Below, piece after piece: positions 8,409-27,689 of a stretch of 64,000 nucleotides of DNA. The DNA is taken from positions 41,872-105,871 of IMG/VR virus record IMGVR_UViG_3300009182_000030; one strand, 5' to 3'. The notes under the pieces were generated by a model that was not told where the DNA came from, searched no databases, and worked only from the letters and a program-made list of their open reading frames with translations. The translations under genes were made by a program, and so were the position numbers. How positions within the stretch are numbered: position 1 is the first letter of the stretch; the number at the start of each line of letters is the position of its first letter. Source of the stretch: a virus.

Positions 8409-8415
8409 ATTTACC

Positions 8416-8493: not shown

Positions 8494-8494
8494 A

Positions 8495-9028: not shown

Positions 9029-9037
9029 ACGTTTCCT

Positions 9038-9114
9038 TGGTGGGCTGAGTGGGATTCTAACCCACGATCAATCGATTATGAGTCGACTGCTTTAGGACTC
9101 TAAGCTACCAGCCC
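9038..9114 (-). tRNA. tRNA with CAU anticodon, probably Ile2 (lysidine type)
   Basis: Acceptor GGGCTGG/TCAGCCC, loop CTCATAA, T arm GTGGG-TTAGAAT-CCCAC, encoded ACCA. The anticodon arm and following bases (CGACTCATAATCG...TGATCG) resemble bacterial tRNA-Ile2 more than tRNA-Met; elongator Met remains possible. The first 15 bases overlap the end of the thioredoxin gene. Confidence 0.85.
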
Positions 9115-9348
9115 AAATTTTTTACGAATAGCAGCTGGTGCCTGCGTTCCCATAATCCTGTCTACCTCAACACCATCTTTCATCAAGACCAATGTTGGTA
9201 CACTACGAACTTTAAATTGATTTGCCATATCTGAATTCTCATCAATATCAACTTCTTCAACCTCAACTCCGAGTGGATCTTTCTCTAACATTTTAGATAA
9301 AGACTTACATGGTTGACACCAACTAGCACTAAACTTAATTACTTTCAT
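9100..9348 (-). CDS. thioredoxin/glutaredoxin-like protein
   Basis: The 82-residue protein MKVIKFSASWCQPCKSL carries a CQPC active site (residues 11-14) and a cis-Pro segment VRSVPT. It is shorter than host thioredoxins (about 105), as common for phage forms. It could reduce the NrdAB ribonucleotide reductase or the AhpC encoded in this window. CAGGAG precedes the start. Its last codons GGG CTG GTA GCT TAG are also the first 15 bases of the downstream tRNA. Confidence 0.9.
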   Translation of the reverse strand: MKVIKFSASWCQPCKSLSKMLEKDPLGVEVEEVDIDENSDMANQFKVRSVPTLVLMKDGVEVDRIMGTQAPAAIRKKFGLVA

Positions 9349-9365
9349 GTTTTCTCCTGTTAAAT

Positions 9366-9440
9366 TGGCCTCGCCAGCAGGAATCGAACCCACATTATAG
9401 GTGTAGAAGACCCATGTATTATCCGTTATACGATGGCGAG
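9366..9440 (-). tRNA. tRNA-Arg (UCU)
   Basis: Acceptor CTCGCCA/TGGCGAG, anticodon loop CTTCTAC, T loop TTCGATT, encoded GCCA end. Confidence 0.93.
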
Positions 9441-9447
9441 AAAAAAT

Positions 9448-9537
9448 TGGCGGTGAGTCAGGGAGTCGAACCCTGTCAGCTACTTTCATAACTGTACGGA
9501 TTAGCAATCCGCTGCATTACCATCCTGCCCACTCACC
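9448..9537 (-). tRNA. tRNA-Ser (GCU)
   Basis: Class II tRNA with acceptor GGTGAGT/ACTCACC, loop TTGCTAA, long variable arm, encoded GCCA end. Confidence 0.95.
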
Positions 9538-9673
9538 TTGTTACTTTACGTAGCAACTTATACCAGTAATATTTAAACCCTCTCCAAGTTGGGAGAAAAT
9601 TCATGTCCCAGAAAAACCCAACTTCTTTGGGCACATTTCCGTACGCTTTTTGTAATGTTTCGTCTGACTTCAT
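9533..9673 (-). CDS. small basic-tailed protein coupled to phosphoesterase
   Basis: The 46-residue ORF MKSDETLQKAYGNVPKEVGF... starts in an ATGA overlap with the phosphoesterase stop and ends with TGA inside the first bases of tRNA-Ser. Its C terminus is aromatic and basic (RGFKYYWYKLLRK). Translational coupling makes it credible; the function is unknown. Confidence 0.6.
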   Translation of the reverse strand: MKSDETLQKAYGNVPKEVGFFWDMNFLPTWRGFKYYWYKLLRKVTR

Positions 9674-10251
9674 GTTGGTCCATTCCCATTTTTAAATCCA
9701 ATCGTTCCACCTTCTTCTTTGATTCTGTCAATGACTTCTTCAAAAAGAATAGGACGAAAGTCAGTTTGTTCTACGCAAACGCAATGGTAACGTGTGTCAA
9801 CAATGTCAGTAATTTTGCCACCAAATCCAGGTAACATAACTCTATTGCTATGAGTATGTCCATGAATGTTGACACCAAACCTACCAAGACTTTCAGGATG
9901 AAGCGGAATATGTGAAAGAATCATTCCATTCATCACATGATATGCACGCAGTTCACGAAAGTGTTGACGATATTCTTCATCTCTAAAGATATCATGGTTA
10001 CCACGAATCAGAACCTTATCGCCATTCAGTCTACGCATGATTCCCAGTGCTTTCCTGTTAATCACTACGTCACCAAGATGATAAACTTTGTCTGTTGGTT
10101 TGACAGTTTCGTTCCATGCTTTTACCATGGCTTCATCCATTTCCTCAGGATTATCCCAAGGACGAAGTTTTGTAACACCATCATTGCGAGTAAACTTACA
10201 AACACCCATGTGTCCGAAGTGAGTATCGCTGACTAAAAATACGCTTGGCAT
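9670..10251 (-). CDS. calcineurin-like metallophosphoesterase
   Basis: The 193-residue protein has the family motifs in order: DTHFGH (near residue 9), GDVV (about 60), GNHD (about 84), HIPLH (about 112) and GHTHS (about 130). These ligands bind two metal ions. GGAGGAG overlapping the previous stop supports the ATG at 10251. Phage members include nucleic-acid phosphatases and cyclic-nucleotide hydrolases; the substrate cannot be told. Two other members are at 22507 and 42004. Confidence 0.88.
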   Translation of the reverse strand: MPSVFLVSDTHFGHMGVCKFTRNDGVTKLRPWDNPEEMDEAMVKAWNETVKPTDKVYHLGDVVINRKALGIMRRLNGDKVLIRGNHDIFRDEEYRQHFRELRAYHVMNGMILSHIPLHPESLGRFGVNIHGHTHSNRVMLPGFGGKITDIVDTRYHCVCVEQTDFRPILFEEVIDRIKEEGGTIGFKNGNGPT

Positions 10252-10253
10252 AA

Positions 10254-10682
10254 TCACTCCTCCTTGTAAGTTAGTCCAAGAACCTGCATCAATTTTTTCT
10301 TCACACGAAGATTTGGTTGACGATAATTATCAGTTGGTGTAAATCCCATCATGGTCGCAACTTCAACAACTGCCCCACTGCGACAAATACCAGCAAAACA
10401 ATGAACGACTACATTCATACGCTGATCAAGTGCGCGATTCAACAGAGCAATAATATTTTCTGCTTGCTCATCCTGAAATTTACACTCATCAGGAAAATCA
10501 TCCTCATCCTCAGCATCAAGAAATTCAAATTCATGAACCTCTTTGAAGTTGTGTTTGGGGTTTGGCTTCCAACCAGCAGGATCGGTAATGCTAATAAGCA
10601 TAGCATTCGGTCCAGCATCGTAGTGAAATCCAGTGTTTACATCAGAAGCTGCTACGTTTTCGATAAATCTAATTGTTTCCAT
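10254..10682 (-). CDS. dual-specificity/tyrosine phosphatase-like protein
   Basis: The 142-residue protein contains VVHCFAGICRSGAV, the HC-x5-R(S) phosphatase loop (Cys at about 98, Arg at about 104). An upstream Asp-rich segment (LDAEDEDDFPDE) may supply the general acid. It is the first gene after the promoter at 10689-10717 and is followed at once by the metallophosphoesterase, so both may act on related phosphorylated substrates. The substrate is unknown. Confidence 0.82.
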   Translation of the reverse strand: METIRFIENVAASDVNTGFHYDAGPNAMLISITDPAGWKPNPKHNFKEVHEFEFLDAEDEDDFPDECKFQDEQAENIIALLNRALDQRMNVVVHCFAGICRSGAVVEVATMMGFTPTDNYRQPNLRVKKKLMQVLGLTYKEE

Positions 10683-10688
10683 ACCTAT

Positions 10689-10717
10689 ATTATACCTGAT
10701 TATTGCTTAAAAGTCAA
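10689..10717 (-). promoter_or_regulatory. early sigma70-type promoter
   Basis: TTGACT (10712-10717), 17-bp spacer and TATAAT (10689-10694), preceded by CAGG at the -10 side as in the other early promoters. It lies just upstream of the phosphatase gene. Confidence 0.82.
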
Positions 10718-10737
10718 TACCCCTGGAAACTCTTATC

Positions 10738-10813
10738 TGGAGCGGGAGACGAGACTCGAACTCGCGACATCTTGCTTGGCAAGCAAGTGCTCTACCAACT
10801 GAGCTACTCCCGC
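10738..10813 (-). tRNA. tRNA-Gly (GCC)
   Basis: Acceptor GCGGGAG/CTCCCGC, anticodon loop TTGCCAA, T arm GCGAG-TTCGAGT-CTCGT, encoded TCCA end. Confidence 0.96.
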
Positions 10814-10816
10814 ATT

Positions 10817-10892
10817 TGGCACCCCCTGATGGACTCGAACCACCGCATGTCGGAATCAAAATCCGATGCCTTACCAACTTGGCGAAGAGGGT
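10817..10892 (-). tRNA. tRNA-Gln (UUG)
   Basis: Acceptor ACCCTCT/AGGGGGT, anticodon loop TTTTGAT, T loop TTCGAGT, encoded GCCA end. Confidence 0.95.
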
Positions 10893-10900
10893 ATAATAAA

Positions 10901-10976
10901 TTTGTGGCAGGTGAGGTATCTAGTCATTGTCTAGACAACGACTTGCCCATTCTCCTTTTACTTTCCTTACCACAAA
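10901..10976 (-). ncRNA. tRNA-sized structured spacer RNA (candidate)
   Basis: This 76-base spacer between tRNA-Trp and tRNA-Gln is closed by TTTGTGG/CCACAAA and holds a central hairpin (GTCGTTG-TCTAGA-CAATGAC) that pairs fully only on the minus strand through a G-U pair. It has no T loop or CCA end, so it is not a normal tRNA. It may be a small stable RNA, as known in the T4 tRNA cluster, or a processing element. Confidence 0.4.
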
Positions 10977-10978
10977 AC

Positions 10979-11052
10979 TGGCATCCCGATAGGGACTCGA
11001 ACCCCAACCAACAGTTTTGGAGACTGCTATGCTGCCATTACACCATCGAGAT
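10979..11052 (-). tRNA. tRNA-Trp (CCA)
   Basis: Acceptor ATCTCGA/TCGGGAT, anticodon loop CTCCAAA, T loop TTCGAGT, encoded GCCA end. Confidence 0.95.
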
Positions 11053-11056
11053 ATTT

Positions 11057-11323
11057 TTACTTTTCTATAACAGCGACAACATGTTCTTCAGTAAGAATAA
11101 CACGTTGAGCACCTTCAAGAACAACAATCTGTGACTTGCCCCAATCAATGAGAACAACATCACCAACATTAACAAGTGTTACTTCTGGACCAACAGCCAA
11201 CACAGTCGCAGTTTTAGATTCGCGAGTTGAGTCAGCACCTTCAAGGATAATTCCTGATGCAGTTTTTGTTTCTGCTTTATTCTCTGCAACAAGAACACGT
11301 TTTCCTAATGGTTTTGCAATCAT
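11057..11323 (-). CDS. GroES-like co-chaperonin (first copy)
   Basis: The 88-residue protein starts MIAKPLGKRVLVAENKAETK and has the GroES mobile-loop region KTASGIIL (about 20-27), a VLAVGPE segment and a GDVVLIDW segment. T4 uses its own co-chaperonin (gp31) with host GroEL to fold the major capsid protein; this copy may do likewise. It ends four bases before tRNA-Trp. A second GroES-like gene lies 0.3 kb upstream. Confidence 0.9.
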   Translation of the reverse strand: MIAKPLGKRVLVAENKAETKTASGIILEGADSTRESKTATVLAVGPEVTLVNVGDVVLIDWGKSQIVVLEGAQRVILTEEHVVAVIEK

Positions 11324-11395
11324 AATAATCCTCTGTTATTTTAAATTAGTGACATACTACTTATCCTTTTATACTCCGTATGTCAGGGAGAGGTT

Positions 11396-11484
11396 TGGCG
11401 GAAGAACTGAGATTCGAACTCAGGGACCTTGTTACAGTCGGCAGTTTTCAAGACTGCTGGTTTAAACCACTCACCCACTCTTCC
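11396..11484 (-). tRNA. tRNA-Ser (UGA)
   Basis: Class II tRNA with acceptor GGAAGAG/TTCTTCC, anticodon loop CTTGAAA, long variable arm, T arm CTGAG-TTCGAAT-CTCAG, encoded GCCA end. Confidence 0.95.
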
Positions 11485-11492
11485 TTAAACTT

Positions 11493-11567
11493 TGGCACCC
11501 AATGAGAGAATCAAACTCCCAACCCAGCGTTCGTAGCACTGTGTGATATTCATTTCACCAATCGGGT
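11493..11567 (-). tRNA. tRNA-Arg (ACG)
   Basis: Acceptor ACCCGAT/ATTGGGT, anticodon loop CTACGAA, T loop TTTGATT, encoded GCCA end. A34 would need host TadA to form inosine. Confidence 0.93.
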
Positions 11568-11569
11568 AT

Positions 11570-11644
11570 TGGTACCTCGTGACAGATTCGAACTGCCGAC
11601 CTTCTCCGTGTAAAAGAGACACTCTACCACTGAGTTAACGAGGC
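11570..11644 (-). tRNA. tRNA-Val (UAC)
   Basis: Acceptor GCCTCGT/ACGAGGT, anticodon loop TTTACAC, T loop TTCGAAT, encoded ACCA end. It follows the second GroES-like gene by one base. Confidence 0.95.
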
Positions 11645-11645
11645 A

Positions 11646-11921
11646 TTATTCTTCAATGAGCATTAAGATTTCTTTCTCAGAAACCATAACTCTTTTCTTT
11701 CCTTCTACATCAATCTCGTGTGCTTTATGCCAATTCACAATACACACATCACCTATTTTTACAGTCTTAGTATCTGGACCAATGCCAAGTACAGTACAGT
11801 GCCAAGTGTTTCCACCAACACCATTTTCTTGACCAAGATCTAACTCAATACCACTTGCTGTTTTTGTATCTTTCTTGTTCTTAGCAAGATAGACCATATC
11901 TTTAATTGGTTTAATTTCCAT
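11646..11921 (-). CDS. GroES-like co-chaperonin (second copy)
   Basis: The 91-residue protein starts MEIKPIKDMVYLAKNKKDTK and keeps the mobile-loop sequence KTASGIEL and a GDVCIVNWHK segment. It differs clearly from the first copy (11057), with an insertion (QENGVGGNTWHC). The two could form mixed rings or serve different GroEL clients. It lies between an oxygenase gene and tRNA-Val. Confidence 0.87.
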   Translation of the reverse strand: MEIKPIKDMVYLAKNKKDTKTASGIELDLGQENGVGGNTWHCTVLGIGPDTKTVKIGDVCIVNWHKAHEIDVEGKKRVMVSEKEILMLIEE

Positions 11922-11923
11922 AA

Positions 11924-12625
11924 TTATCCTTTAATATAACCTGCTTTAATGTGTTCTTCAAGTGTAAGATATCCGTATTCTTCTGGCTTTGGATAAACAT
12001 ACTGATCATAATGGTCAGAGTTTGTTCTTCCAACTGGCATACAGTTTGCTCCAATAATCATTCTATATGTGCTTGGCGATGGTAGAGCTACATGATTTGC
12101 CCAAGACGGAAATATAATTGCCGTTCCTGGAACAAATGGAATCTGTTCTTGAATCGAGAAAAACTTTCTCGCACCTTTTTTAATTCTAGGCACAATCTGA
12201 AACAGATTAGCATTATGATTCTTAAAAGCAGTACCATTCGCATTACCATCTATATCAAACAAATACAAAACACCTGCTAGAAAGGTATTGGCATGAACAT
12301 GTTCATGGTGATTGCCACCTTGCTTATGTCTGGTTGCCCACATTGATGTAATACCAATATCTTTTTCATAACCACATTTATCCATCACATCCTCAAAACA
12401 TGATGTAAAAAATTCTGTAACTTCAGACAGTTGAGGATGTAATGTTTTATCATTTAAATTACCATCAGTAATTTGTAAACCATTACGTTCTCTTTCAACA
12501 AAAAAGTTTTTGTCTTGAGCCAAGTACGTTGTCAATTCCTTTTGTTTCTTCTGAAAATCAGGAAACTGATAACGCCAAACTGGTGTCGGAAAGAAATCGT
12601 GACGATCTAAAAAATTATTGTTCAT
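11924..12625 (-). CDS. 2OG-Fe(II) oxygenase family protein
   Basis: The 233-residue protein has HEHVHANTFLAGVLYL (about 106-121), where a histidine pair begins the iron site, and FPSWANHVALPS (about 170-181) with the distal His. This is the layout of the phage 2OG-FeII_Oxy_5-type family, which often has longer N termini starting with a target-like PTPVW segment. It is translationally linked to the DUF2061 gene by an 11-base overlap. The substrate is unknown. Confidence 0.78.
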   Translation of the reverse strand: MNNNFLDRHDFFPTPVWRYQFPDFQKKQKELTTYLAQDKNFFVERERNGLQITDGNLNDKTLHPQLSEVTEFFTSCFEDVMDKCGYEKDIGITSMWATRHKQGGNHHEHVHANTFLAGVLYLFDIDGNANGTAFKNHNANLFQIVPRIKKGARKFFSIQEQIPFVPGTAIIFPSWANHVALPSPSTYRMIIGANCMPVGRTNSDHYDQYVYPKPEEYGYLTLEEHIKAGYIKG

Positions 12626-12851
12626 CTACTTTCTTACCCCAATCAGACACATTCCAAGCACGTTCATGGAAGAAGTACATAATGCTATTTACGACAAGCG
12701 CAAAACTAACAACACCAAGTCCTACCATCCAGCTACCACTTGCTAACCAACCACCAATAAAATTGGTAATCGTCACAAGGATACGCCATGTAATAACTTT
12801 AGCAAGAGATCGTGGAATACGTTCTTGAAATTTCGTTTTAAAATTAAACAT
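12615..12851 (-). CDS. DUF2061 small membrane protein
   Basis: The 78-residue protein has two predicted membrane segments and the family signature KVITWRI near residue 18 and YFFHERAWN near residue 59. Function is unknown. It is the first gene after the promoter/terminator junction at 12869-12929, with GGAGAATTATT before the ATG. Confidence 0.85.
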   Translation of the reverse strand: MFNFKTKFQERIPRSLAKVITWRILVTITNFIGGWLASGSWMVGLGVVSFALVVNSIMYFFHERAWNVSDWGKKVDEQ

Positions 12852-12868
12852 AATAATTCTCCAAAATG

Positions 12869-12898
12869 AAAAAAGAGCTGGGGTTTATTCCAACTCTT
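12869..12898 (-). terminator. intrinsic terminator overlapping promoter start
   Basis: AAGAGTTGG pairs with CCAGCTCTT on the minus strand and is followed by a T run. The 5' arm lies between the -10 box and the predicted start point of the promoter at 12901-12929, so transcripts starting there would lack part of the stem while read-through transcripts would form it. Confidence 0.7.
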
Positions 12899-12900
12899 TT

Positions 12901-12929
12901 ATTATACTTTACTTTTGATTATTTGTAAA
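12901..12929 (-). promoter_or_regulatory. early sigma70-type promoter
   Basis: TTTACA (12924-12929), 17-bp spacer, TATAAT (12901-12906). It lies between the solute-binding-protein gene and the DUF2061 gene. Confidence 0.75.
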
Positions 12930-12935
12930 GTTTTT

Positions 12936-13880
12936 TTATGCTTCCTGTATTCGTTGGACTAATCCAGGACTAAAGTATGTAGAGAATCGAGTATATACTT
13001 TGGATGTTAATTCTTTAAATTTCGATTTCTCTGTTTCATTCATTCTTACTACTTCAACATTATTATCTGCGCATTGTTGTAAGATGTTTGGTATATCTGC
13101 TACCGAAGTTTGTCTTTCTTGTCTAGCAGCATTAAATGCAGCTGTTGACATAATTTCTTGAGTAGCTTCATCAAACTGACTGAAGAATTGTTTATTGACA
13201 ATAATTGATGTCAAAAACAAACTATGTTCAGTGTCATTAACAACTTCGAATGTTTTATGCTGCTCTAGTGGGAACACACGAACGTATGTTGATTCACCAG
13301 CTTCAATAAGACCTTGCTCAACAGCAGAATGCATTTCTTCTAAAGAGATACGATCTTTTGGCACAGCACCAAGCATTTTAAATGTCTCAACAGCAACTGG
13401 GCTGCGAGCCACACGAACTTTTTTACCACGCCAAGAATCAACTGTATCAGCACGGAAATTAGCAGGAACAATTCTGAACCCACCTGAATATGTAAAACTC
13501 ATTGCCTTCGTGTTGGAATTTTTCTCCACACTTGAAAGCAACTCTGCACCGATTTCGCCTTCTAATACACGATCAGCATGATCATGATCTTTGAATAAGA
13601 AAGGTAAATCTAATGCATGTAAATCTTTGTTGTAGTCAGCCAACCATGTTGTGTAGATATGGCTCATTTCAATTTCGCCAGAATCAATCAACCCCATTAA
13701 GTCGTCTTTCATAATGTGTTTGCCATCATTGTATTTTTCTGAATAATCAGACAATGATAGAACTTCGCACTGGAAATTACCACCAGTCTTTTCATTTACT
13801 TCGGCTACAAATGCCTCAGCTACTTTTACAAAGTAGTCAATTGGTTCATGGGCAATCACCCAACGAATTGGTTTTGTCAT
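12936..13880 (-). CDS. TRAP-type (DctP-like) solute-binding protein without signal peptide
   Basis: The 314-residue protein matches TRAP transporter substrate-binding proteins: a GGFRIVP segment with the conserved ligand Arg (about 134-140), WRGKKVRVARSPVAVETFKMLGA (about 149-170) and an EEMHSAVEQGLIEAGE region. Host proteins of this family carry signal peptides; this one starts MTKPIRWVIAHEP with none, so it would stay in the cytoplasm unless the true start differs. No membrane TRAP components are nearby. A T4-late-type box lies 34 bases upstream. A ligand-binding role not involving transport is possible. Confidence 0.82.
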   Translation of the reverse strand: MTKPIRWVIAHEPIDYFVKVAEAFVAEVNEKTGGNFQCEVLSLSDYSEKYNDGKHIMKDDLMGLIDSGEIEMSHIYTTWLADYNKDLHALDLPFLFKDHDHADRVLEGEIGAELLSSVEKNSNTKAMSFTYSGGFRIVPANFRADTVDSWRGKKVRVARSPVAVETFKMLGAVPKDRISLEEMHSAVEQGLIEAGESTYVRVFPLEQHKTFEVVNDTEHSLFLTSIIVNKQFFSQFDEATQEIMSTAAFNAARQERQTSVADIPNILQQCADNNVEVVRMNETEKSKFKELTSKVYTRFSTYFSPGLVQRIQEA

Positions 13881-13913
13881 TTTATCTCCTGATATAAGGT
13901 ACTATTACAACCT

Positions 13914-13921
13914 TATTTATA
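13914..13921 (-). promoter_or_regulatory. T4-type late promoter TATAAATA
   Basis: TATAAATA, the exact T4 late -10 consensus, reads on the minus strand 34 bases before the DctP-like start, in the short gap after the PP-loop gene. Confidence 0.6.
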
Positions 13922-13924
13922 TGA

Positions 13925-15187
13925 CTAATTTGGCCAATCTATATCATAACGCTGTAAATGGTATTTAAAATATCGTCTTACAGATAGGTTTTTTCTGTTC
14001 AAGATTTGGTAGTTGGAATCAAGTCCAAGTAAATGACGTCCTCTAACATCTTTTCGAACTTCCCTTGGTTTGCGTTTTGAGTTCAAATTTCCCAAAGATT
14101 CCAGCTTGGTTTTGAAATGGAAGTACCAGTCGTTCTTGTCTAGATCGTAGATATATTGTCGCTGAGCATATTTGTATGTTGCAAGAGTACTACCAATTTT
14201 CTGACCATTGTTATTGTTAGCCATACTCCATTGTTGATATTCGCCACCATTATACCAGTTTTCCATTGAGTCAATACATTCGCGAATCGGTATGGTATAA
14301 TTAAAGTAGATCGCACCACGAACTGAACAATTTAAATACTTGACATTAAAAATTAACCACCAAAAGAAATCGTGTAAACTATGAATAGGAACAGATCCAG
14401 TATTGGCATTATGAACATACTTATGGTACAACAGCCTACCAAACTCACGACCCTCTGGTGTATTGTTATATGATAGATGTTTGATAATTAAATCTTTATA
14501 CAAACTATAATGAGCATCAGCAGAAGATATCTTATTTTTGATTGACAATAAGTTTTGTCTTACCTCAGGACTTAAATCCTGAATGTAGTAATCGTAGTTG
14601 TGGTATAATTGTAAACCAATTGATGTACCAAAAATACAATCACCTTCGTCTGCAGTAATTGGTCTATAACCATCACGAATTAAATCATCATAGAAACATG
14701 TATATGAATCAATTACTTTTAATTTATTGTGTATAAATTTTTCCCAGAATACTGGATTTTCAGCAATACTATGTATGCTGGCGCAGACAACAACTGATTT
14801 TAATTCTTCTTCATTTAAGTTTTTAATCAACGAAGCAAGAACCAGTGTACTATCCATACCACCAGAATACATCACAACAAGTTTCTCACCATTATGAATT
14901 CTTTGACGCATTTGAAGCGCACGTTCATCAGTAACTTGTTCATACGATTTTGAGAAGTTTGGATCATATGGTGGCATTTCAAATCCAGGAATCAAAGGTT
15001 GTTTCCATGGCAACGACCACTCGCCATTGCGTGTGACAAATCTATTTTGCGTTAGACGTTTTGCAATATCAATGTAGAACTTTCCACCTGCGCCACATTC
15101 TTCTCTGGTCTCTGCCCAGAAACCTTGTTGTGGGGTTTGGTCTAGTCGAATGTTATAAAAATAAATTGGGTCGTCTAATGCTATCAT
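13925..15187 (-). CDS. asparagine-synthetase-like ATP-pyrophosphatase (PP-loop) protein
   Basis: The 420-residue protein has VVMYSGGMDSTLV (about 107-119), the PP-loop, and ADEGDCIFGTSIG (about 178-190), matching the second ATP motif of asparagine synthetases. It shares HDFFWW (about 271) and a W-x-M-x-N element with the proteins at 30657 and 45353. It lacks the glutaminase domain of AsnB, so it probably adenylates a carboxylate, with ammonia or another amine as nucleophile; the substrate is unknown. The start overlaps the stop of the partner gene (ATGA). Confidence 0.75.
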   Translation of the reverse strand: MIALDDPIYFYNIRLDQTPQQGFWAETREECGAGGKFYIDIAKRLTQNRFVTRNGEWSLPWKQPLIPGFEMPPYDPNFSKSYEQVTDERALQMRQRIHNGEKLVVMYSGGMDSTLVLASLIKNLNEEELKSVVVCASIHSIAENPVFWEKFIHNKLKVIDSYTCFYDDLIRDGYRPITADEGDCIFGTSIGLQLYHNYDYYIQDLSPEVRQNLLSIKNKISSADAHYSLYKDLIIKHLSYNNTPEGREFGRLLYHKYVHNANTGSVPIHSLHDFFWWLIFNVKYLNCSVRGAIYFNYTIPIRECIDSMENWYNGGEYQQWSMANNNNGQKIGSTLATYKYAQRQYIYDLDKNDWYFHFKTKLESLGNLNSKRKPREVRKDVRGRHLLGLDSNYQILNRKNLSVRRYFKYHLQRYDIDWPN

Positions 15188-15900
15188 AAAATTTTCAGAT
15201 TTGGAACTTCATCAAGGAATTTATAATACTCATTGGCAAGAGTAACAACTTTGTTGTAGTCTTTCTCCCAAACACCTTTGATATTATCACGTGCTTCTTC
15301 AACACTGTTTGACATATAAAGTTGTTTCTTTACTTCTTTAATTACACCATCTTCAAATTTGGTTGCGTCTCTATATAATGTTACACCATTCAACCAGTCA
15401 TTTGGTAAATATTGTTCAGCAAAAGTTTTGTTATCAACATAATTGACAATCGTATTAGATAAACTCAAAGCATATACACATCTATTAACATACTCAGCGT
15501 ATTCTTTCAGCTGAATTAACTTATCGTATCTACTACCTGTGTCAAATTCTTTTGGTAATCCAACTTCAACAAGTTGTGTTGCGTCGTTTAACACTTTTAC
15601 TGTAGGAATTTGACTGGTAATTAAATCAGCAGCAGCACCACGTTTCTCTGCTGTCTTATTGAACACCATGTAATTTAAACAGTTATCATTGGTCATACCA
15701 CTAGTAATTTTGGGCAGAACATAAACTGTGGTCGCGATCTTTGAAGACAAAAGTTGAGCGGTCTGCAGTGTAATCCAGTAATCATAATCATCAAGCATAA
15801 GCCAACGATCAAAAATCTGACAGTAGATACCATTCGTTCTTCTATTTCCTTCCTCGTCGTAGTACATGTTATCTACGATTTTAATAGTGTTACGTTGCAT
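15184..15900 (-). CDS. partner protein of the PP-loop enzyme (unknown)
   Basis: The 238-residue protein starts MQRNTIKIVDNMYYDEEGN, with a beta-rich N-terminal half and a helical C-terminal half. I recognise no family. It is coupled by ATGA to the PP-loop gene. Genes of similar size and layout precede the PP-loop genes at 31765 and 46450, which suggests a paired function such as substrate presentation. Confidence 0.7.
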   Translation of the reverse strand: MQRNTIKIVDNMYYDEEGNRRTNGIYCQIFDRWLMLDDYDYWITLQTAQLLSSKIATTVYVLPKITSGMTNDNCLNYMVFNKTAEKRGAAADLITSQIPTVKVLNDATQLVEVGLPKEFDTGSRYDKLIQLKEYAEYVNRCVYALSLSNTIVNYVDNKTFAEQYLPNDWLNGVTLYRDATKFEDGVIKEVKKQLYMSNSVEEARDNIKGVWEKDYNKVVTLANEYYKFLDEVPNLKIL

Positions 15901-15913
15901 AATTTATCCTTAA

Positions 15914-15987
15914 TGGTGGAGGATGAGAGAATCGAACTCTCAATAATGACTTGCAAAGCCATGGTTATCCCATTTAACTAATCCCCC
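15914..15987 (-). tRNA. tRNA-Ala (UGC)
   Basis: Acceptor GGGGGAT/ATCCTCC, anticodon loop TTTGCAA, T arm GAGAG-TTCGATT-CTCTC, encoded ACCA end. Confidence 0.95.
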
Positions 15988-15990
15988 AAT

Positions 15991-16068
15991 TGGTCTCAGT
16001 AGAAGGATTCGAACCTTCGACCCCCTGCTCCCAAAGCAGGTGCGCTAACCAGACTGCGCTACACTGAG
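15991..16068 (-). tRNA. tRNA-Pro (UGG)
   Basis: Acceptor CTCAGTG/TACTGAG, anticodon loop TTTGGGA, T arm GAAGG-TTCGAAT-CCTTC, encoded ACCA end. Confidence 0.96.
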
Positions 16069-16075
16069 TTAATTT

Positions 16076-16150
16076 TGGTGGTGATGGTTGGATTCGAGCC
16101 AACGACCCCCTGCGTATGAAGCAGATGCACTACCACTGTGCTACATCACC
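16076..16150 (-). tRNA. tRNA-Met (CAU), elongator type
   Basis: Acceptor GGTGATG/CATCACC fully paired (so not initiator), anticodon loop TTCATAC, T loop CTCGAAT, encoded ACCA end. Confidence 0.9.
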
Positions 16151-16157
16151 GAAATTC

Positions 16158-16240
16158 TGGTGCCCCAAGAGAGACTCGAACTCTCACGCTTGCGCACTGG
16201 CTTCTAAGACCAGCGTGTCTACCAATTCCACCATCGGGGC
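16158..16240 (-). tRNA. tRNA-Leu (UAG)
   Basis: Class II tRNA with acceptor GCCCCGA/TTGGGGC, anticodon loop CTTAGAA, long variable arm, encoded ACCA end. Confidence 0.95.
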
Positions 16241-16259
16241 ATACTTCTACTTCAATAAA

Positions 16260-16333
16260 TGGTGCCCCCACACAGAATCGAACTGCGGATTGATGCTTAC
16301 AAGGCAACTGTTATACCATTTAACTATGAGGGC
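16260..16333 (-). tRNA. tRNA-Thr (UGU)
   Basis: Acceptor GCCCTCA/TGGGGGC, anticodon loop CTTGTAA, T loop TTCGATT, encoded ACCA end. One mismatch in the anticodon stem. Confidence 0.92.
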
Positions 16334-16339
16334 AATAAC

Positions 16340-16414
16340 TGGCTCCAGTGGCTGGGATCGAACCAACGACCAATTGATTAACAGTCAACTGCACTACCGC
16401 TGTGCTACACTGGA
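16340..16414 (-). tRNA. tRNA-Asn (GUU)
   Basis: Acceptor TCCAGTG/CACTGGA, anticodon loop CTGTTAA, T loop TTCGATC, encoded GCCA end. Confidence 0.94.
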
Positions 16415-16422
16415 ATAATGAA

Positions 16423-16638
16423 TTTGTAAGTTGTGCCACCATCGTTATTGGCACCATTCACCTGTTTATACAAGGGCGACCAGGACTCGGTACGTCACTT
16501 GGGATTCATCCAGTTGATACGCCACCTGTATACCTCCACCGTAAACGGCGATAAGTCGGAATCGAACCGCAACCTTTTACTAACTTGGTCCTTCGAAGAA
16601 ACTTCATTAGCATGACTTCACTTGCTGACACTTACAAA
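16423..16638 (-). ncRNA. structured spacer RNA between tRNA-Met and tRNA-Asn (candidate)
   Basis: This 216-base spacer is closed by a 9-bp inverted repeat (ACTTACAAA/TTTGTAAGT at its ends) beginning three bases after a tRNA CCA end. Inside are a long imperfect stem (TATACAGG-GGCG with CGCC-TTGTATA) and a GTGCCA/TGGCAC hairpin. No convincing gene or full tRNA fits, although one stretch (GGTTCGATTCC) resembles a T loop. Confidence 0.4.
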
Positions 16639-16641
16639 ACT

Positions 16642-16718
16642 TGGTAGCGGAGGTTGGATTCGAACCAACGATTCTTGGCTTATGAGACCAAGCGGATAGA
16701 CCACTTCCATACACCGCA
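16642..16718 (-). tRNA. tRNA-Met (CAU), possibly initiator
   Basis: Anticodon loop CTCATAA and T arm GTTGG-TTCGAAT-CCAAC with encoded ACCA. The first acceptor pair is T1/T72, unpaired as in bacterial initiators, and there is a second T-T mismatch at pair 6. The anticodon stem has only two of the three G-C pairs typical of initiators. Confidence 0.88.
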
Positions 16719-16760
16719 ACAATTATATTATGTATATATCTGTTACATACATAAAACAAC

Positions 16761-16836
16761 TGGTGGGACTGCTGGGACTCGAACCCAGAATTGGCAGATT
16801 AAAAGTCTGCTGTGATAACCATTTCACTACAATCCC
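16761..16836 (-). tRNA. tRNA-Lys (UUU)
   Basis: Acceptor GGGATTG/CAGTCCC, anticodon loop CTTTTAA, T arm CTGGG-TTCGAGT-CCCAG, encoded ACCA end. Confidence 0.95.
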
Positions 16837-16868
16837 ATTCGCTTTCGAACTTTCGTCTTTCGTTTCAT
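16827..16868 (-). CDS. 13-residue basic micro-ORF between tRNA genes
   Basis: MKRKTKVRKRMGL is preceded by TAAGGAG eight bases before its ATG and stops with TAG inside the first ten bases of tRNA-Lys. The ribosome binding site is as good as that of any real gene here. The product could be a tiny RNA-binding peptide, or its translation could affect tRNA maturation. It may be chance. Confidence 0.35.
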   Translation of the reverse strand: MKRKTKVRKRMGL

Positions 16869-16888
16869 TACTTTCTCCTTAAAAAAAT

Positions 16889-16963
16889 TGGTACCCAAGG
16901 GTGGGAACGATCCACCGACCCTCGCCTTATCAAGACGATGCTCTACCACTGAGCTACTTGGGC
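16889..16963 (-). tRNA. tRNA-Ile (GAU)
   Basis: Acceptor GCCCAAG/CTTGGGT, anticodon loop TTGATAA, encoded ACCA. The T loop reads ATCGTTC instead of the usual TTCGANN. Confidence 0.92.
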
Positions 16964-16971
16964 ATTATTAT

Positions 16972-17047
16972 TGGTGCTGCCTAGTAGAATCGAACTACTT
17001 TCAATGGTTCTTCAAACCACCGCTATGACCACATCAGCTAAAGCAGC
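16972..17047 (-). tRNA. tRNA-Phe (GAA)
   Basis: Acceptor GCTGCTT/AGGCAGC, anticodon loop TTGAAGA, T loop TTCGATT, encoded ACCA end. Confidence 0.94.
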
Positions 17048-17049
17048 AT

Positions 17050-17124
17050 TGGGGTGTCGTATGAGAATTGAACTCATGATGACGGAATCACAATCCGTAG
17101 TTTTACCACTAAACTAACAACACC
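17050..17124 (-). tRNA. tRNA-His (GUG)
   Basis: Anticodon loop TTGTGAT, acceptor GTGTTGT/ACGACAC plus the His-specific extra G(-1) opposite the discriminator C, then CCA. T loop TTCAATT. Confidence 0.95.
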
Positions 17125-17130
17125 ATAAGA

Positions 17131-17205
17131 TGGCGGTCTCAAGGGGTAACGATCCCCTTCTTCGACAGTGACAGTGTCGTGTGCGTCCATGAACACTTTG
17201 AGACC
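17131..17205 (-). tRNA. tRNA-Asp (GUC)
   Basis: Acceptor GGTCTCA/TGAGACC, anticodon stem CGACA/TGTCG with loop CTGTCAC, encoded GCCA. T loop ATCGTTA is atypical, like that of tRNA-Ile (GAU). Confidence 0.9.
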
Positions 17206-17333
17206 TGAATAAGTTGGCATTACGAAGTTTAGCCGTGCATCTTTCGTGCGCACCGAATAGACTGACTGACGTCAGCCCCAAATAACACGCTAGACCCTTT
17301 GTCTAGATTGACAGCAACGATAGTTGCTGTTTA
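17206..17333 (-). ncRNA. hairpin-rich spacer between tRNA-Tyr and tRNA-Asp (candidate)
   Basis: The 128-base spacer contains ACAGCAAC-TATC-GTTGCTGT (8-bp stem, tetraloop, 17311-17330), CTAGAC-AAAGG-GTCTAG (17290-17306) and further short stems, without a start codon/ribosome-binding-site pair. It is probably folded RNA removed during tRNA processing or a small stable RNA. Confidence 0.35.
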
Positions 17334-17418
17334 TGGTGGATGCGGTTGGAGTCGAACCAACAGTGCCAGAGGCGGGAGATTTACAGTCTCCTGGGGTTAC
17401 CAGTTTTCCTACACATCC
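17334..17418 (-). tRNA. tRNA-Tyr (GUA)
   Basis: Class II tRNA with acceptor GGATGTG/CGCATCC, anticodon loop CTGTAAA, long variable arm, encoded ACCA end. Confidence 0.96.
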
Positions 17419-17541
17419 ATTAGTAGAATTCTCTGCACTATTTGCCTACGTTCAACAGCTTTACTCGAGTTTACTGTTTATTGCGTAAGTTACATAACGA
17501 ATGATCAATCCTCTGTGCTTACAGAGAATTCTACTAATGGA
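17416..17541 (-). ncRNA. 20-bp-stem-closed spacer between tRNA-Gly and tRNA-Tyr (candidate RNA)
   Basis: A perfect 20-bp inverted repeat (17416-17435 and 17522-17541) bounds an 86-base interior. The stem includes the discriminator and CCA of tRNA-Gly (UCC) on one side and the first three bases of tRNA-Tyr on the other. In the transcript this would form one long hairpin, like the processing stems around rRNAs. No ORF fits. Confidence 0.6.
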
Positions 17542-17611
17542 GCGGAATATCAGAATCGAACTGATGACCGAAGATTGGAAATCTGCTGTTTTACCATTAA
17601 ACTAATCCCGC
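17538..17611 (-). tRNA. tRNA-Gly (UCC)
   Basis: Acceptor GCGGGAT/ATTCCGC, anticodon loop TTTCCAA, T loop TTCGATT, encoded TCCA end. One mismatch in the anticodon stem. Confidence 0.93.
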
Positions 17612-17649
17612 AACTATATGGCAACCTGAGTGTCTCACGACAAGTCTGC

Positions 17650-17891
17650 TACCATAGTAAAATACATGAGGATGATCAGCAACAACCATCACCCGATGGC
17701 TAACCACGTATTCGTCATACGATTGGTTGCTTCTCACATTACGTTCCAACTTTCTCCAGCGTGACCACCGTATCCACCTTTCGGCTTCGTTTCCATCTTT
17801 CGTGTAATCTAGCGAGAGCCAATCCGTCGATTGGTTATCCTCTCCTAGATCACCTACTGGTTTTGGTAACCCAATGCATTTTACTATGGTA
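17650..17891 (-). ncRNA. 14-bp-stem-closed structured spacer RNA (candidate)
   Basis: A 14-bp perfect inverted repeat (17650-17663, 17878-17891) starts at the ACCA end of tRNA-Glu. The interior holds at least three perfect hairpins: CCAATC-GACG-GATTGG, CGTAT-GACGA-ATACG and CCATC-GGGT-GATGG. The frame across it is open but has no usable start, so a folded noncoding RNA of about 240 bases is preferred. Confidence 0.5.
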
Positions 17892-17962
17892 CTCGATGGG
17901 GGAATCGAACCCCTCCTTCCTGCCGTGAAAGAGCAGTGTCCTAACCGATAGACGAATCGAGC
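17887..17962 (-). tRNA. tRNA-Glu (UUC)
   Basis: Acceptor GCTCGAT/ATCGAGT, anticodon loop CTTTCAC, T arm AGGGG-TTCGATT-CCCCC, encoded ACCA end. It is the first tRNA after the operon promoter. Confidence 0.95.
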
Positions 17963-23999: not shown

Positions 24000-24150
24000 T
24001 CCCAACAAACAATAGTGTCAATTTACAGAACCATGATTTTGGTCCCATAATTTCATCACGACCACTTGCCCACCCCAATCTCCAGTGGAAGGGGTTAACT
24101 ACTATCGTGATGAAAACACCTGAATATTGAATCCATTTTGCTATTTTCAT
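23968..24150 (-). CDS. small conserved-type membrane protein
   Basis: The 60-residue protein MKIAKWIQYSGVFITIVVNP... starts in a TAATG overlap with the ClpP-like stop and overlaps the end of the convergent glycosyltransferase gene by 32 bases. It has one or two membrane segments and the NPFHWRLGW and VIDDGSW patterns that I associate with a small phage membrane family of unknown role. Confidence 0.65.
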   Translation of the reverse strand: MKIAKWIQYSGVFITIVVNPFHWRLGWASGRDEIMGPKSWFCKLTLLFVGISVVIDDGSW

Positions 24151-24710
24151 TAATATAAATCCTTAACTTGATCACAAATCCCCAGTTTTAGTGCTTCTTT
24201 TGCACTCAACCAAACATCCTGAGGTGGGAGAAGTTTCTCACGGATAGATGGCTCATCTAGACCTGTGCACTTTTTATAATGTAACATAAGTCGTTTGGTT
24301 GTTAAATCATATTCTTTTACCGTAGCAATAAGTTCATGTTCTTTTCCGAACGAACCCCAACTATATTGATGCGATAGAATTGATGTATTTGGTGTAAGCA
24401 GACGATGTCCTTTCTCACCAGCAATAAACATCAATAATCCAGCAGATGCAATTTGTCCAAGCCCAATAGTTCGGATTGGCGTAGCACTGCCTTTCATACA
24501 ATCAATGACTGCGAAGGCAGCATTAAGATCGCCACCTGGAGAACAAATTACAAGATTAAGTAAATCGTATTGTTCTTCGCCCATGTTACAAGCAAAAATC
24601 CACTCAACAATCTGCCTACATGAAGTCATAGTAACTTCGTCCATAAATAGCAGAAAATTTTGTTTCGGGGCATTACCTGCATTCAAATTGATATTAAGTT
24701 TTTCTGTCAT
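24150..24710 (-). CDS. ClpP-like serine protease
   Basis: The 186-residue protein has the ClpP fold pattern: VICSPGGDLNAAFAVIDCM (oxyanion region, about 54-73), GQIASAGLLM with the nucleophile Ser (about 89), SILSHQYSWG with the catalytic His (about 114), and PPQDVWLSAKEAL with the acid (about 164). Phage ClpP-like enzymes may process capsid proteins or replace host ClpP. The window also encodes a tmRNA with a ClpXP-type tag. Confidence 0.87.
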   Translation of the reverse strand: MTEKLNINLNAGNAPKQNFLLFMDEVTMTSCRQIVEWIFACNMGEEQYDLLNLVICSPGGDLNAAFAVIDCMKGSATPIRTIGLGQIASAGLLMFIAGEKGHRLLTPNTSILSHQYSWGSFGKEHELIATVKEYDLTTKRLMLHYKKCTGLDEPSIREKLLPPQDVWLSAKEALKLGICDQVKDLY

Positions 24711-25248
24711 TTATTGTAATCACTTTCGGGTCAGTATAAAAAATATGTCTTCCAATTTTGGTAGTTTTTTGTAACTTTGACCATCCTGGAGAGACATAGT
24801 CGGCATGATAATATATAGCACCCTTTGTTACATCATCAATAACTTGATAGTTGAAGTAAACATAAAGTGCCACTTGTCTTACATCATTATATAATTCTTT
24901 CTGTGTTGCTGATACAGCTTTCTTACCTTCACAAAACCAAGTGAATTGGCACGTTGATTTTACTTTTTGTTTAACAACTCCGCAGACGCTGTCTTCAAAC
25001 ACGTTTGATTTGACACGATTTAATGTAACCAAACCTACTGCAATTTTGCCAGTCTCTGGTTCATAACCTGCTTCGTAAAATATATTATCTGTTAAACAGT
25101 CAATTTCCTTCTTCTCTTTTGCATTTAGATGTGTATATGGAACATCTACAATCTTTGTTCCTGCTTTTGAATTTTGCGTTGCGGTAAACAACAGTGCAAC
25201 AAATAATATAATTGTTATTAAAATTGAAATTAGATATTTCAAAATCAT
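24694..25248 (-). CDS. SleB-like cell wall hydrolase with N-terminal membrane anchor
   Basis: The 184-residue protein has a hydrophobic N terminus (about 4-24) and the SleB/Hydrolase_2 pattern NIFYEAGYEPETGKIAVG (about 55-72), CQFTWFCEG (about 101-109), GAIYYHADYVSPGW (about 141-154) and KIGRHIFY (near 165). The Glu in YEAG is the likely catalytic residue. It may be exported to the periplasm as a second peptidoglycan hydrolase besides the GH19 enzyme at 28338. Confidence 0.83.
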   Translation of the reverse strand: MILKYLISILITIILFVALLFTATQNSKAGTKIVDVPYTHLNAKEKKEIDCLTDNIFYEAGYEPETGKIAVGLVTLNRVKSNVFEDSVCGVVKQKVKSTCQFTWFCEGKKAVSATQKELYNDVRQVALYVYFNYQVIDDVTKGAIYYHADYVSPGWSKLQKTTKIGRHIFYTDPKVITINDRKT

Positions 25249-25301: not shown

Positions 25302-25586
25302 TCAGGTGGACTTCTTGATAGTAGTCTTTTCTTGTGTAGTTTGTGGGGATACGTTAGAAACAAAACCATTCAGCGTTTGTGCTTTGCTGATGATATCATT
25401 TTCTGATGGGAAGGCAGGGAATCCTGGATGATCAGGAATCGTGCCACCATTTAGTTTAGCAGATTCGACTTTCGTTTGCCAGTCGTTGCTAATTTGTTCA
25501 CGTTTGCCGTAGTACTCATCGCTGAGCATATCTTTGGCCATTTTTAAAAGTTCGAGACGAATCTCAAAAGGTGTCATATTTGACAT
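25302..25586 (-). CDS. conserved T4-like phage protein, unknown
   Basis: The 94-residue protein starts MSNMTPFEIRLELLKMAKDML, a sequence pattern I recognise from T4-like aquatic phages, with a less ordered C terminus ending in KTTIKKST. GGAGAAAACT precedes the ATG. A late-type box lies 60 bases upstream, suggesting virion or assembly use; the function is unknown. Confidence 0.75.
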   Translation of the reverse strand: MSNMTPFEIRLELLKMAKDMLSDEYYGKREQISNDWQTKVESAKLNGGTIPDHPGFPAFPSENDIISKAQTLNGFVSNVSPQTTQEKTTIKKST

Positions 25587-25698: not shown

Positions 25699-26265
25699 TT
25701 AAAACGATCTAGTATAAGATACGTATGTTCGATTAAAAGCATTATCACCATTTACATCATCATAGCCAAGAGAGATACTGTCTTTCTTGGTAATAGCATA
25801 ACCCAATGAGTAACGAATTGAGTTTGTTGTATCTGATTTATCAGAAGCAAATGCTGTACGGAAACGATAACCAAGTTTAGCAGTCAAACCTTCAACTGGA
25901 GTTTTAACAATAACTCCTGGCTCTACTGAGTAGTAAGCGAAATTCTTACCACCAGTAATACGCTCACCAACAGCACCACGTGCGTAACCAGTAATAAAGT
26001 TATCACCGATCAATCCCATTTTGCCTGTAACACCAGCTTCATAACGTGAGGAAACTGTATTTGCAGAATCAGTAGCTGTGTTTAGAATGCTAACATCACC
26101 ATCGATTTGTTTTGTTAGAGATGTTTTAACATCTAACTTGTACACATCACTCATGGCTTTACTAGAATCTGCTTCTTGACGTCCATAAGTTACTGTTGCT
26201 GAAGTGTCGGCGAATGCCATTGAAGATGCAGCGAGCAATGCTGCTGCGATTAGTTTTAATTTCAT
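25699..26265 (-). CDS. outer-membrane beta-barrel protein
   Basis: The 188-residue protein has a classical signal peptide (MKLKLIAAALLAASSMAFA, cleavage after AFA), alternating hydrophobic strands, and a C-terminal YVSYTRSF ending in Phe, the BAM recognition signal. The size suits an 8-10-stranded barrel. Host outer-membrane proteins look alike, so a captured or mimic porin is likely. It could block phage receptors, change permeability or interact with the lipoprotein and exported proteins of this phage. Confidence 0.85.
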   Translation of the reverse strand: MKLKLIAAALLAASSMAFADTSATVTYGRQEADSSKAMSDVYKLDVKTSLTKQIDGDVSILNTATDSANTVSSRYEAGVTGKMGLIGDNFITGYARGAVGERITGGKNFAYYSVEPGVIVKTPVEGLTAKLGYRFRTAFASDKSDTTNSIRYSLGYAITKKDSISLGYDDVNGDNAFNRTYVSYTRSF

Positions 26266-26283
26266 GTAATATCCTTTAAAAAT

Positions 26284-26329
26284 TCAAAAAACAAAATGGC
26301 AGGTTCTTCTGTTACGAGGTGAACCTGCC
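26284..26329 (-). terminator. terminator hairpin after tmRNA coding piece
   Basis: GGCAGGTTC pairs with GAACCTGCC on the minus strand, followed by ATTTTGTTTTTT. It ends the tmRNA transcript 18 bases after the tag region ends; the hairpin may also belong to the mature RNA. Confidence 0.75.
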
Positions 26330-26346
26330 GAAACCCTAAGCAGTGT

Positions 26347-26379
26347 TTAGGCTGCTAATGCGTAGACAGAGTCGTTTGC
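26347..26379 (-). other. tmRNA tag reading frame ANDSVYALAA
   Basis: GCA AAC GAC TCT GTC TAC GCA TTA GCA GCC TAA encodes ANDSVYALAA, close to the E. coli tag ANDENYALAA, starting with the GCA resume codon after an A-rich stretch. The ALAA end is a ClpXP degradation signal. Confidence 0.93.
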
Positions 26380-26464
26380 ATTTACTTTTTTTATGCGATT
26401 TACAGTCGTCATCTACTGTGTTGCCGTCTCTACTATCTCACCCTGTCGAAACCTAGTCACCCCC

Positions 26465-26535
26465 ATCAAAAGCACTTCTCGTTTTACATTCCCCTGAATA
26501 CATCATTTCTGGTTCAGCTAATACGCAAATGCTTT
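26465..26535 (-). other. tmRNA intervening segment removed on maturation
   Basis: This segment joins the CCA end of the acceptor piece (26536) to the first G of the coding piece (26464). Its ends pair with each other (CAAAAGCA/TGCTTTTG) so that the acceptor stem is continued as a hairpin. Confidence 0.8.
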
Positions 26536-26597
26536 TGGTGGAGGTGGGGAGAATCGAACTCCCGTCCAGAATGCCTTCGCTTTGAAGGGATTACAAC
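26536..26597 (-). ncRNA. acceptor piece of two-piece tmRNA
   Basis: It contains the T arm and CACCTCC-ACCA acceptor end, preceded by a CCTTC/GAAGG hairpin (CCCTTCAAAGCGAAGG). The 5' boundary is estimated and lies just after the stop of the 43-residue basic peptide gene. Confidence 0.75.
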
Positions 26598-26599
26598 AA

Positions 26600-26731
26600 T
26601 TACTTAACTGCTTGAGTGTGCTTGTGTTTCAAAGACTTCTTAAGCAGTTTCATCCAAAACTTCTTAACCTTGTCTGCTTTATGCTCGACTTCGGCTTTGT
26701 TTAGTTTTAAAATTAGTGCCTTAACTTTCAT
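26600..26731 (-). CDS. 43-residue basic peptide upstream of tmRNA
   Basis: The ORF MKVKALILKLNKAEVEHKAD... is rich in Lys and His and predicted helical. It starts in an ATGA overlap with the exported-protein gene, so translation is likely coupled. It ends only a few bases before the tmRNA acceptor piece. Charge suggests binding to RNA or membranes; no family recognised. Confidence 0.6.
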   Translation of the reverse strand: MKVKALILKLNKAEVEHKADKVKKFWMKLLKKSLKHKHTQAVK

Positions 26732-27069
26732 TGATTCGGTACCAATACTTGTCTGTAGCAATTACAGTATGCGTCAAGGATATTTTCATAATGATAGCCA
26801 TACGGCATTGCTGGTTGTTGATAGATTACCTGTGGTGGCATTTGTTGAACCACAACAGGTGGTTGTTGAACCACAACAGGTGGTTGTTGAACCACAACAG
26901 GTGGATAATAATATGGCTGAGGACGATGCAACTCATAACCAATAATACCACCAATAATAGCTGGACCAACCCAACCAACATGACCACCACCATACCCACG
27001 TCCTCCATGGGCGAATGCTTGACCACTGATGCTTAATGCAGCAATAAGAACCAAAACGAACTTTTTCAT
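26728..27069 (-). CDS. exported Gly/Pro-rich protein with PPVVVQQ repeats
   Basis: The 113-residue protein has a signal peptide (MKKFVLVLIAALSISGQAFA), a Gly/His-rich start (HGGRGYGGGH), a hydrophobic GPAIIGGIIGY element and three near-identical PPVVVQQ repeats encoded by a 21-bp tandem DNA repeat. Two cysteines (YCNCY) lie near the C terminus. It resembles small exported bacterial proteins with glycine-zipper-like parts. It has its own strong early promoter at 27096-27124. Confidence 0.75.
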   Translation of the reverse strand: MKKFVLVLIAALSISGQAFAHGGRGYGGGHVGWVGPAIIGGIIGYELHRPQPYYYPPVVVQQPPVVVQQPPVVVQQMPPQVIYQQPAMPYGYHYENILDAYCNCYRQVLVPNQ

Positions 27070-27095: not shown

Positions 27096-27124
27096 ATTAT
27101 ACCTGAAAACGGAATTAATGTCAA
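27096..27124 (-). promoter_or_regulatory. early sigma70-type promoter
   Basis: GCTTGACA (-35 at 27119-27124), 17-bp spacer, TATAAT (27096-27101). It drives the exported-protein, basic-peptide and tmRNA unit, which ends at the terminator at 26284-26329. Confidence 0.88.
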
Positions 27125-27131
27125 GCACTAT

Positions 27132-27689
27132 TTATAACGTGGAACCACCTACAGGACGATTGCAAGCGCACAATTCGCCAGTCTGCAAGGCATCCAGAAT
27201 TCGAAGAGTCTCATCTGGGCTTCTGCCTACATCTGTGTTGTTTATCGTCATGTGTTGAATTACATTTGCTGGGTCAATAATATATGTAGCTCTGAATGCA
27301 CAACCTGTCAAATCGTTGAATGCACCAAGTTGGTTAATTAACCCATCTGTCCATTCATTGTTCTCATTTCTAAACATGTTTCTTACTGTGTCTGCAAACA
27401 TCCAACTCTTTAGATTTGTCAAAGTCATGTCCGCATTTTTCCAAGCAATTTTACAGTATTCATTATCTGTACTACCGATAAGTAATTCTGCATCACGTTT
27501 TGCGAATTCGTCATGTAGATTATCGTATCCAACAATTTCTGTTGGGCAAACAAATGTAAAATCTTTTGGATAATAAACAACGACTTTCCATTTTCCTGGA
27601 AAAGATTGTTCATTAATCTGTTCAAATGTGTTGTCTGGTTTAACACCAACTAACACAAATGGATCTAATTGTTGTCCTAGCATTTTCAT
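27132..27689 (-). CDS. ahpC: AhpC-type 2-Cys peroxiredoxin
   Basis: The 185-residue protein has the peroxidatic motif DFTFVCPTE (about 43-51) and a C-terminal resolving segment GELCACNRP. It resembles the AhpC subgroup with the CxC tail known from Mycobacterium. The enzyme reduces peroxides with electrons from thioredoxin or AhpD/AhpF-like partners; a thioredoxin-like protein is encoded at 9100. It is coupled to the nuclease gene by ATGA. Peroxiredoxins are rare in phages. Confidence 0.9.
   Translation of the reverse strand: MKMLGQQLDPFVLVGVKPDNTFEQINEQSFPGKWKVVVYYPKDFTFVCPTEIVGYDNLHDEFAKRDAELLIGSTDNEYCKIAWKNADMTLTNLKSWMFADTVRNMFRNENNEWTDGLINQLGAFNDLTGCAFRATYIIDPANVIQHMTINNTDVGRSPDETLRILDALQTGELCACNRPVGGSTL

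Follow-up and report, generated by a model that had tools for sequence, protein, structure and literature searches.

A circularly permuted two-piece tmRNA gene in a viral contig of T4-like type, with a ClpP gene downstream

We analyzed a 64,000-nucleotide stretch of DNA (the window) covering positions 41,872 to 105,871 of the IMG/VR record IMGVR_UViG_3300009182_000030, a linear virus record of 105,871 bp. Its minus strand carries, at ~26600-26290, a complete circularly permuted tmRNA gene, identified by covariance models and ARAGORN. Based on its structure, covariation, tag conservation, phage context, and conserved position, we think it probable (about 0.8) that this is a functional gene of a phage lineage, whose product would be a two-piece tmRNA that works with the SmpB of the host. 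The gene is not novel in kind. It adds to the phage two-piece tmRNAs reported in 2022, when that of Methylophilales phage Melnitz was described and 53 were counted among phage genomes, nearly all of them aquatic (PMC9004378); a tmRNA database of 2025 holds 79 phage sequences (PMC11915505). The first-pass annotation of this DNA gave Alphaproteobacteria, some Cyanobacteria, and a Betaproteobacteria lineage as the known range of permuted two-piece tmRNA, but left out phages, where such RNAs were already known.

The window matched the Rfam model tmRNA_permuted (RF04321) over its full length at 26598..26347 with 147.9 bits (E 3e-29; gathering score 47), and beta_tmRNA (RF01850), also over its full length, at 26646..26277 with 151.9 bits (E 1e-46; gathering score 84). 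ARAGORN, which is independent of Rfam, called a permuted tmRNA with the tag ANDSVYALAA. The two Rfam scores and the ARAGORN call exclude chance, and the covariance search that the first-pass annotation had proposed as its check thus returned a match in permuted order. On the minus strand, a T-arm piece with an encoded ACCA comes first, followed by a 71-nt intervening segment and then a 5' piece containing GGGGGUG, GGUUUCGACAGGG, and the tag frame. The parts are as follows.

26536..26602 (5' end approximate), minus strand: tmRNA 3' (acceptor) piece, based on the RF04321 match, the sequence, and T-stem pairing; contains an H2 strand, the T-arm, the acceptor strand CACCTCC (26546-26540), and the encoded ACCA (26539-26536)
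26465..26535, minus strand: intervening segment, presumably removed in processing, based on stem pairing counts and the predicted fold
26537-26529 (left) and 26475-26467 (right), minus strand: arms CAAAAGCA(T)/(G)TGCTTTTG, which extend the acceptor stem
26298..26464 (3' end approximate), minus strand: tmRNA 5' piece, based on the RF01850 match; contains the acceptor strand GGGGGTG (26464-26458), GGTTTCGACAGGG, the mRNA-like part, and the final hairpin
26347..26379, minus strand: tag frame ANDSVYALAA plus TAA, from ARAGORN and synonymous variants in relatives
26285..26329, minus strand: final hairpin GGCAGGTTC/GAACCTGCC with conserved loop CCTCGTAACAGAA, based on helix covariation

All seven acceptor pairs form between the two pieces, and the CCA end is encoded. 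At the third pair, which is the position of alanine identity, the window has G-U; this pair is U-G in 23/23 aligned copies. The tag is read from GCA AAC GAC TCT GTC TAC GCA TTA GCA GCC TAA (26379-26347), with a GCN resume codon and a proteolysis-type end. A T-rich stretch comes after the final hairpin, and together they are likely a terminator. The order of the pieces, the complete 7-bp acceptor pairing, the tag frame, and the matching arms of the intervening segment had all been noticed in the first-pass annotation, and each was borne out here at the positions listed. Because the left arm takes in the C and A of CCA, the amino-acid-accepting end would be sequestered in the precursor until processing.

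We then compared this structure with other viral copies. A pattern scan of IMG/VR picked out at least 120 stretches, with ARAGORN permuted tmRNAs in most of them; a strict T-arm pattern had zero matches in viral contigs. From the pattern scan and from ClpP-anchored loci, at least nearly 70 permuted tmRNA copies were dissected in viral contigs besides the window, and the acceptor pairs were 7/7 in all of them. When the window was aligned with other viral copies (23 in total), standard pairs filled 91.2% of cells across five named helices, versus a shuffled mean of 77.8%, and 0/500 shuffles scored as high. As a control, sliding the partners by 1-3 columns lowered pairing to 40-54%, and cells changed on both sides numbered 105 against 28. 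Six of the seven acceptor pairs are invariant across the 23 copies and carry little weight in this test; support therefore comes from the T-stem (100% paired), the precursor stem, and the final hairpin, in which 7/8 pairs have changes on both sides. The intervening-segment stem alone was paired in 391/477 cells across 53 distinct viral sequences, versus 283 +/- 9 when shuffled. Since this stem is also visible in several bacterial copies (among L152-L161), it looks general to such precursors and not a phage invention.

The tag appears to be under constraint as well. Among the matches listed, ANDSVYALAA recurs in L043, L062, L071, and L101, the last three with synonymous codon differences from the window, and 47/71 viral tags end in ALAA. 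Predicted tags in L049, L088, L018, L093, L105, and L122 are extreme in length, at 23-31 aa or as short as 8 aa; some of these may be ARAGORN misreadings.

The contig is that of a T4-like phage of a freshwater type. Among T4-type genes, PHROGs matches include gp32 (6e-106), a baseplate hub (3e-59), primase, and an RNase H-type exonuclease. The nearest cultured relative by gp32 is Melnitz, at 53% identity, and a 24-kb megablast query had no close match among phage records. These hallmark genes, together with the covariance models, comparative structure, and tag conservation, support the earlier claim of a complete permuted tmRNA in a T4-like phage. The gene order of the window runs PhoH, a lysozyme-like gene, exonuclease, peroxiredoxin, a 113-aa ORF, a 43-aa ORF, tmRNA, a signal-peptide ORF, a 94-aa ORF, cell wall hydrolase, and ClpP, and the gp59/gp32 block follows after inserted genes and tRNAs. 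A more compact version of this arrangement is found in many viral contigs. In Melnitz (MZ577097), the order is PhoH, PDDEXK exonuclease, annotated SsrA, late-transcription coactivator, gp59, ThyX, and gp32. The window tmRNA thus occupies the same place, between the PhoH/PDDEXK-exonuclease pair and the gp59-ThyX-gp32 block, although in the window an insertion of tRNAs and genes precedes gp59/gp32.

Several other genes lie in this region. Clusters totaling 26 tRNA genes (8324-17962, minus strand) separate the tmRNA/ClpP block from the gp32 region, which are close together in relatives. A peroxiredoxin (AhpC-TSA) gene at 27132-27689 on the minus strand lies between the exonuclease and the tmRNA operon, with homologues in L050, L059, and L125-L127. 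A DctP-type TRAP-transporter solute-binding protein is encoded at 12936-13880 on the minus strand (Pfam DctP, E 1e-44) and is probably an auxiliary gene acquired from a host.

The genes and the promoter-like site around the tmRNA are as follows.

27096..27124, minus strand: sigma-70 promoter-like site TTGACA-17-TATAAT (12/12), the putative start of the transcription unit
26728..27069, minus strand: 113-aa ORF with an N-terminal hydrophobic stretch, the first gene of the putative unit; no Pfam or PHROGs match
26600..26731, minus strand: 43-aa lysine-rich ORF that overlaps the preceding stop (ATGA) and ends at the tmRNA; no Pfam match
25699..26265, minus strand: 188-aa ORF with a signal-peptide-like N-terminus, found in some relatives (L021, L062, L104, L110); its product may be beta-barrel-like
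25302..25586, minus strand: conserved 94-aa ORF, 61-89% identical in relatives
24694..25248, minus strand: cell wall hydrolase (Pfam Hydrolase_2, E 9e-23)
24150..24710, minus strand: ClpP-like serine peptidase (Pfam CLP_protease, E 5e-28), in synteny with the tmRNA

The first-pass annotation credited the tmRNA with its own early promoter. There is a perfect sigma-70 site ~500 nt upstream, but it stands ahead of the 113-aa and 43-aa ORFs, and no such site was found between these two ORFs and the tmRNA; the promoter appears to serve a small operon, not the tmRNA alone. Six other perfect sigma-70 sites occur elsewhere in the window, and thus this one looks like the usual early-type signal of the phage. 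A candidate T4-type late promoter at 27136-27129 was rejected, as its octamer TATAAATA is no more frequent in the window than chance would give. The 94-aa ORF was considered as a counterpart of Melnitz gene 90 (late-transcription coactivator) and is not the counterpart.

To place the RNA among known tmRNAs, we compared covariance models and built a tree. The best clan model was the betaproteobacterial one (RF01850) for the window and for 18/18 viral loci scanned. Like betaproteobacterial RF01850 tmRNAs, the window copy has the permutation, a tRNA-like domain, a 10-aa AND...A-type tag, and the intervening-segment stem; unlike them, it is phage-encoded and branches with other phage copies, and its intervening segment is 71 nt (ACCA to 5' piece), compared to a few to ~45 nt in the bacterial copies dissected. 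In a tree of viral copies and 12 bacterial permuted tmRNAs, based on a short alignment of 200 columns and with modest supports elsewhere, the window grouped with six viral copies at 98% SH-aLRT, nearest to L071/L062. In the same tree, 11/12 bacterial copies grouped together and the viral copies lay apart from most of them, as expected for a maintained phage gene. We could not assign a host from the tmRNA, given this separate grouping and a strong permuted tmRNA in only 14/300 genomes of the order searched; the latter makes a one-piece tmRNA in the host quite plausible. A tag-based pattern had zero matches in bacterial genomes, and thus no host with the tag ANDSVYALAA was found.

Melnitz likewise carries a permuted two-piece tmRNA in a T4-like phage with no SmpB found. 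Its tmRNA differs in scoring best with alpha_tmRNA (106.7 bits) and in a 14-aa tag, ANDNYVPVDYALAA, compared to 10 aa in the window. Just downstream of it lies a glutamine riboswitch, and Melnitz has no ClpP, whereas the window has a ClpP gene downstream. Synechococcus phage BUCT-ZZ01 (ON615601.1) has a permuted tmRNA at 116952-117248 on the minus strand (111.9 bits to RF04321). Permuted beta-type tmRNAs with the tag ANDTSFDVRLAA are present, unannotated in both records, in the Samunavirus phages of Pseudomonas aeruginosa SM1 (L003, NC_041877.1, 2974-3394) and UF_RH6 (L002, OQ383211.1, 2983-3403); Pseudomonas aeruginosa has a one-piece tmRNA. The tmRNAs of mycobacteriophages Bxz1 and Wildcat and of Bacillus phage G are of the standard, unpermuted form. 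They, too, are phage-encoded (PMC4131195).

For the functional two-piece tmRNA that we favor, we infer the following path from transcription to benefit. One precursor would be transcribed from the small operon, and its acceptor stem, with 7 pairs of its own and ~9 more contributed by the intervening segment, would join the two halves while host tRNA-processing enzymes cut out the intervening segment. The two pieces would stay together through the acceptor stem and H2, and host alanyl-tRNA synthetase would charge the CCA end, consistent with the G-U third pair. No SmpB was found in the 105.9-kb record (a fragment) or in another 14 virus records that included four ~170-kb relatives, while ten bacterial controls matched; host SmpB is assumed for this reason. 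Host SmpB would then deliver the phage tmRNA to ribosomes stalled on broken mRNA, where translation would resume on ANDSVYALAA, freeing the ribosome and marking the peptide for Clp proteolysis. The likely gain for the phage would be ribosomes that stay usable as host mRNA is degraded and host tmRNA perhaps becomes scarcer, a benefit in line with the 26 tRNA genes of the window. The role put forward in the first-pass annotation, to keep or redirect ribosome rescue in infected cells, is a reasonable proposal and had been made before by the Melnitz authors, whose suggestions were rescue or recycling (PMC9004378).

The ClpP gene ~1.6 kb downstream raises a further possibility, which would add to ribosome rescue rather than exclude it: fragments tagged by the tmRNA may be degraded by phage or mixed ClpP under host ClpX/ClpA, for amino acid recycling or removal of host proteins. 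The Ser, His, and Asp of the catalytic triad align to solved ClpP. ClpP accompanies the tmRNA in at least 17 tmRNA-anchored viral contigs, and a reverse, ClpP-anchored scan found a tmRNA upstream in 9/11 T4-type loci with enough upstream DNA, some of these loci being near-duplicates so that the counts are not independent events. In this clade, a ClpP gene usually comes after the tmRNA. We found no published mention of a tmRNA-ClpP link in an incomplete coverage of the literature, and this neighborhood is apparently an unreported detail. Four ~170-kb relatives encode a gp21-type prohead protease (Peptidase_S77) and ClpP at distant places, and therefore ClpP is probably not the prohead protease and was not found to be the only maturation protease of the phage; Peptidase_S77 had no match in the window's own, partial record.

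The association is looser in other phages. Melnitz has the tmRNA without ClpP (its gene 78, adjoining the cell wall hydrolase, was considered and is not ClpP), while no tmRNA was found near two T4-type ClpP loci (L129, L133) or nine ClpP loci of other contexts (L139-L147). The tmRNA is absent from at least one close relative, L129, and thus is not essential to the group. BUCT-ZZ01 has both ClpP and a permuted tmRNA, but they are 41 kb apart and its ClpP adjoins PhoH and an exonuclease instead of the tmRNA, so the tie may be to that neighborhood. Degradation of tagged fragments by this ClpP is therefore a tentative proposal, and we are equally doubtful that the two-piece tmRNA and a non-prohead ClpP form a co-inherited tag-and-degrade module in this freshwater T4-like clade. 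If they did, the phage would be supplying a pathway for quality control or protein recycling that works with SmpB and ClpX of the host.

It is very unlikely that the phage tmRNA acts as a decoy, competing for SmpB, EF-Tu, or ribosomes and lowering host rescue. Such a role has been proposed for the RNA of mycobacteriophage DS6A, which has the tRNA-like domain only, and a phage RNA cut down to that domain does inhibit host tmRNA (PMC4131195; PMC11915505). A decoy would not, however, need the mRNA-like part, resume codon, tag, stop codon, and final hairpin that are kept and constrained here. Recent chance capture of a host ssrA without phage function, for instance by imprecise excision, is more improbable still and already largely refuted: integration often takes place at ssrA genes and the covariance model types the RNA as betaproteobacterial, but the gene keeps its place across many divergent phage contigs and Melnitz, viral copies form groups separate from most of the bacterial ones, and structure and tag are constrained.

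The conserved position, strong covariation, and varied but constrained tag thus argue that the two-piece tmRNA gene is maintained and is not passenger DNA. That phages carry their own ribosome-rescue RNA suggests that stalled ribosomes matter during infection. The ClpP neighbor is the part most worth following up, as it makes the purpose of the tmRNA, whether rescue, recycling, or selective degradation, testable in cultured phages, with Melnitz offering the tmRNA only and BUCT-ZZ01 the tmRNA with ClpP.
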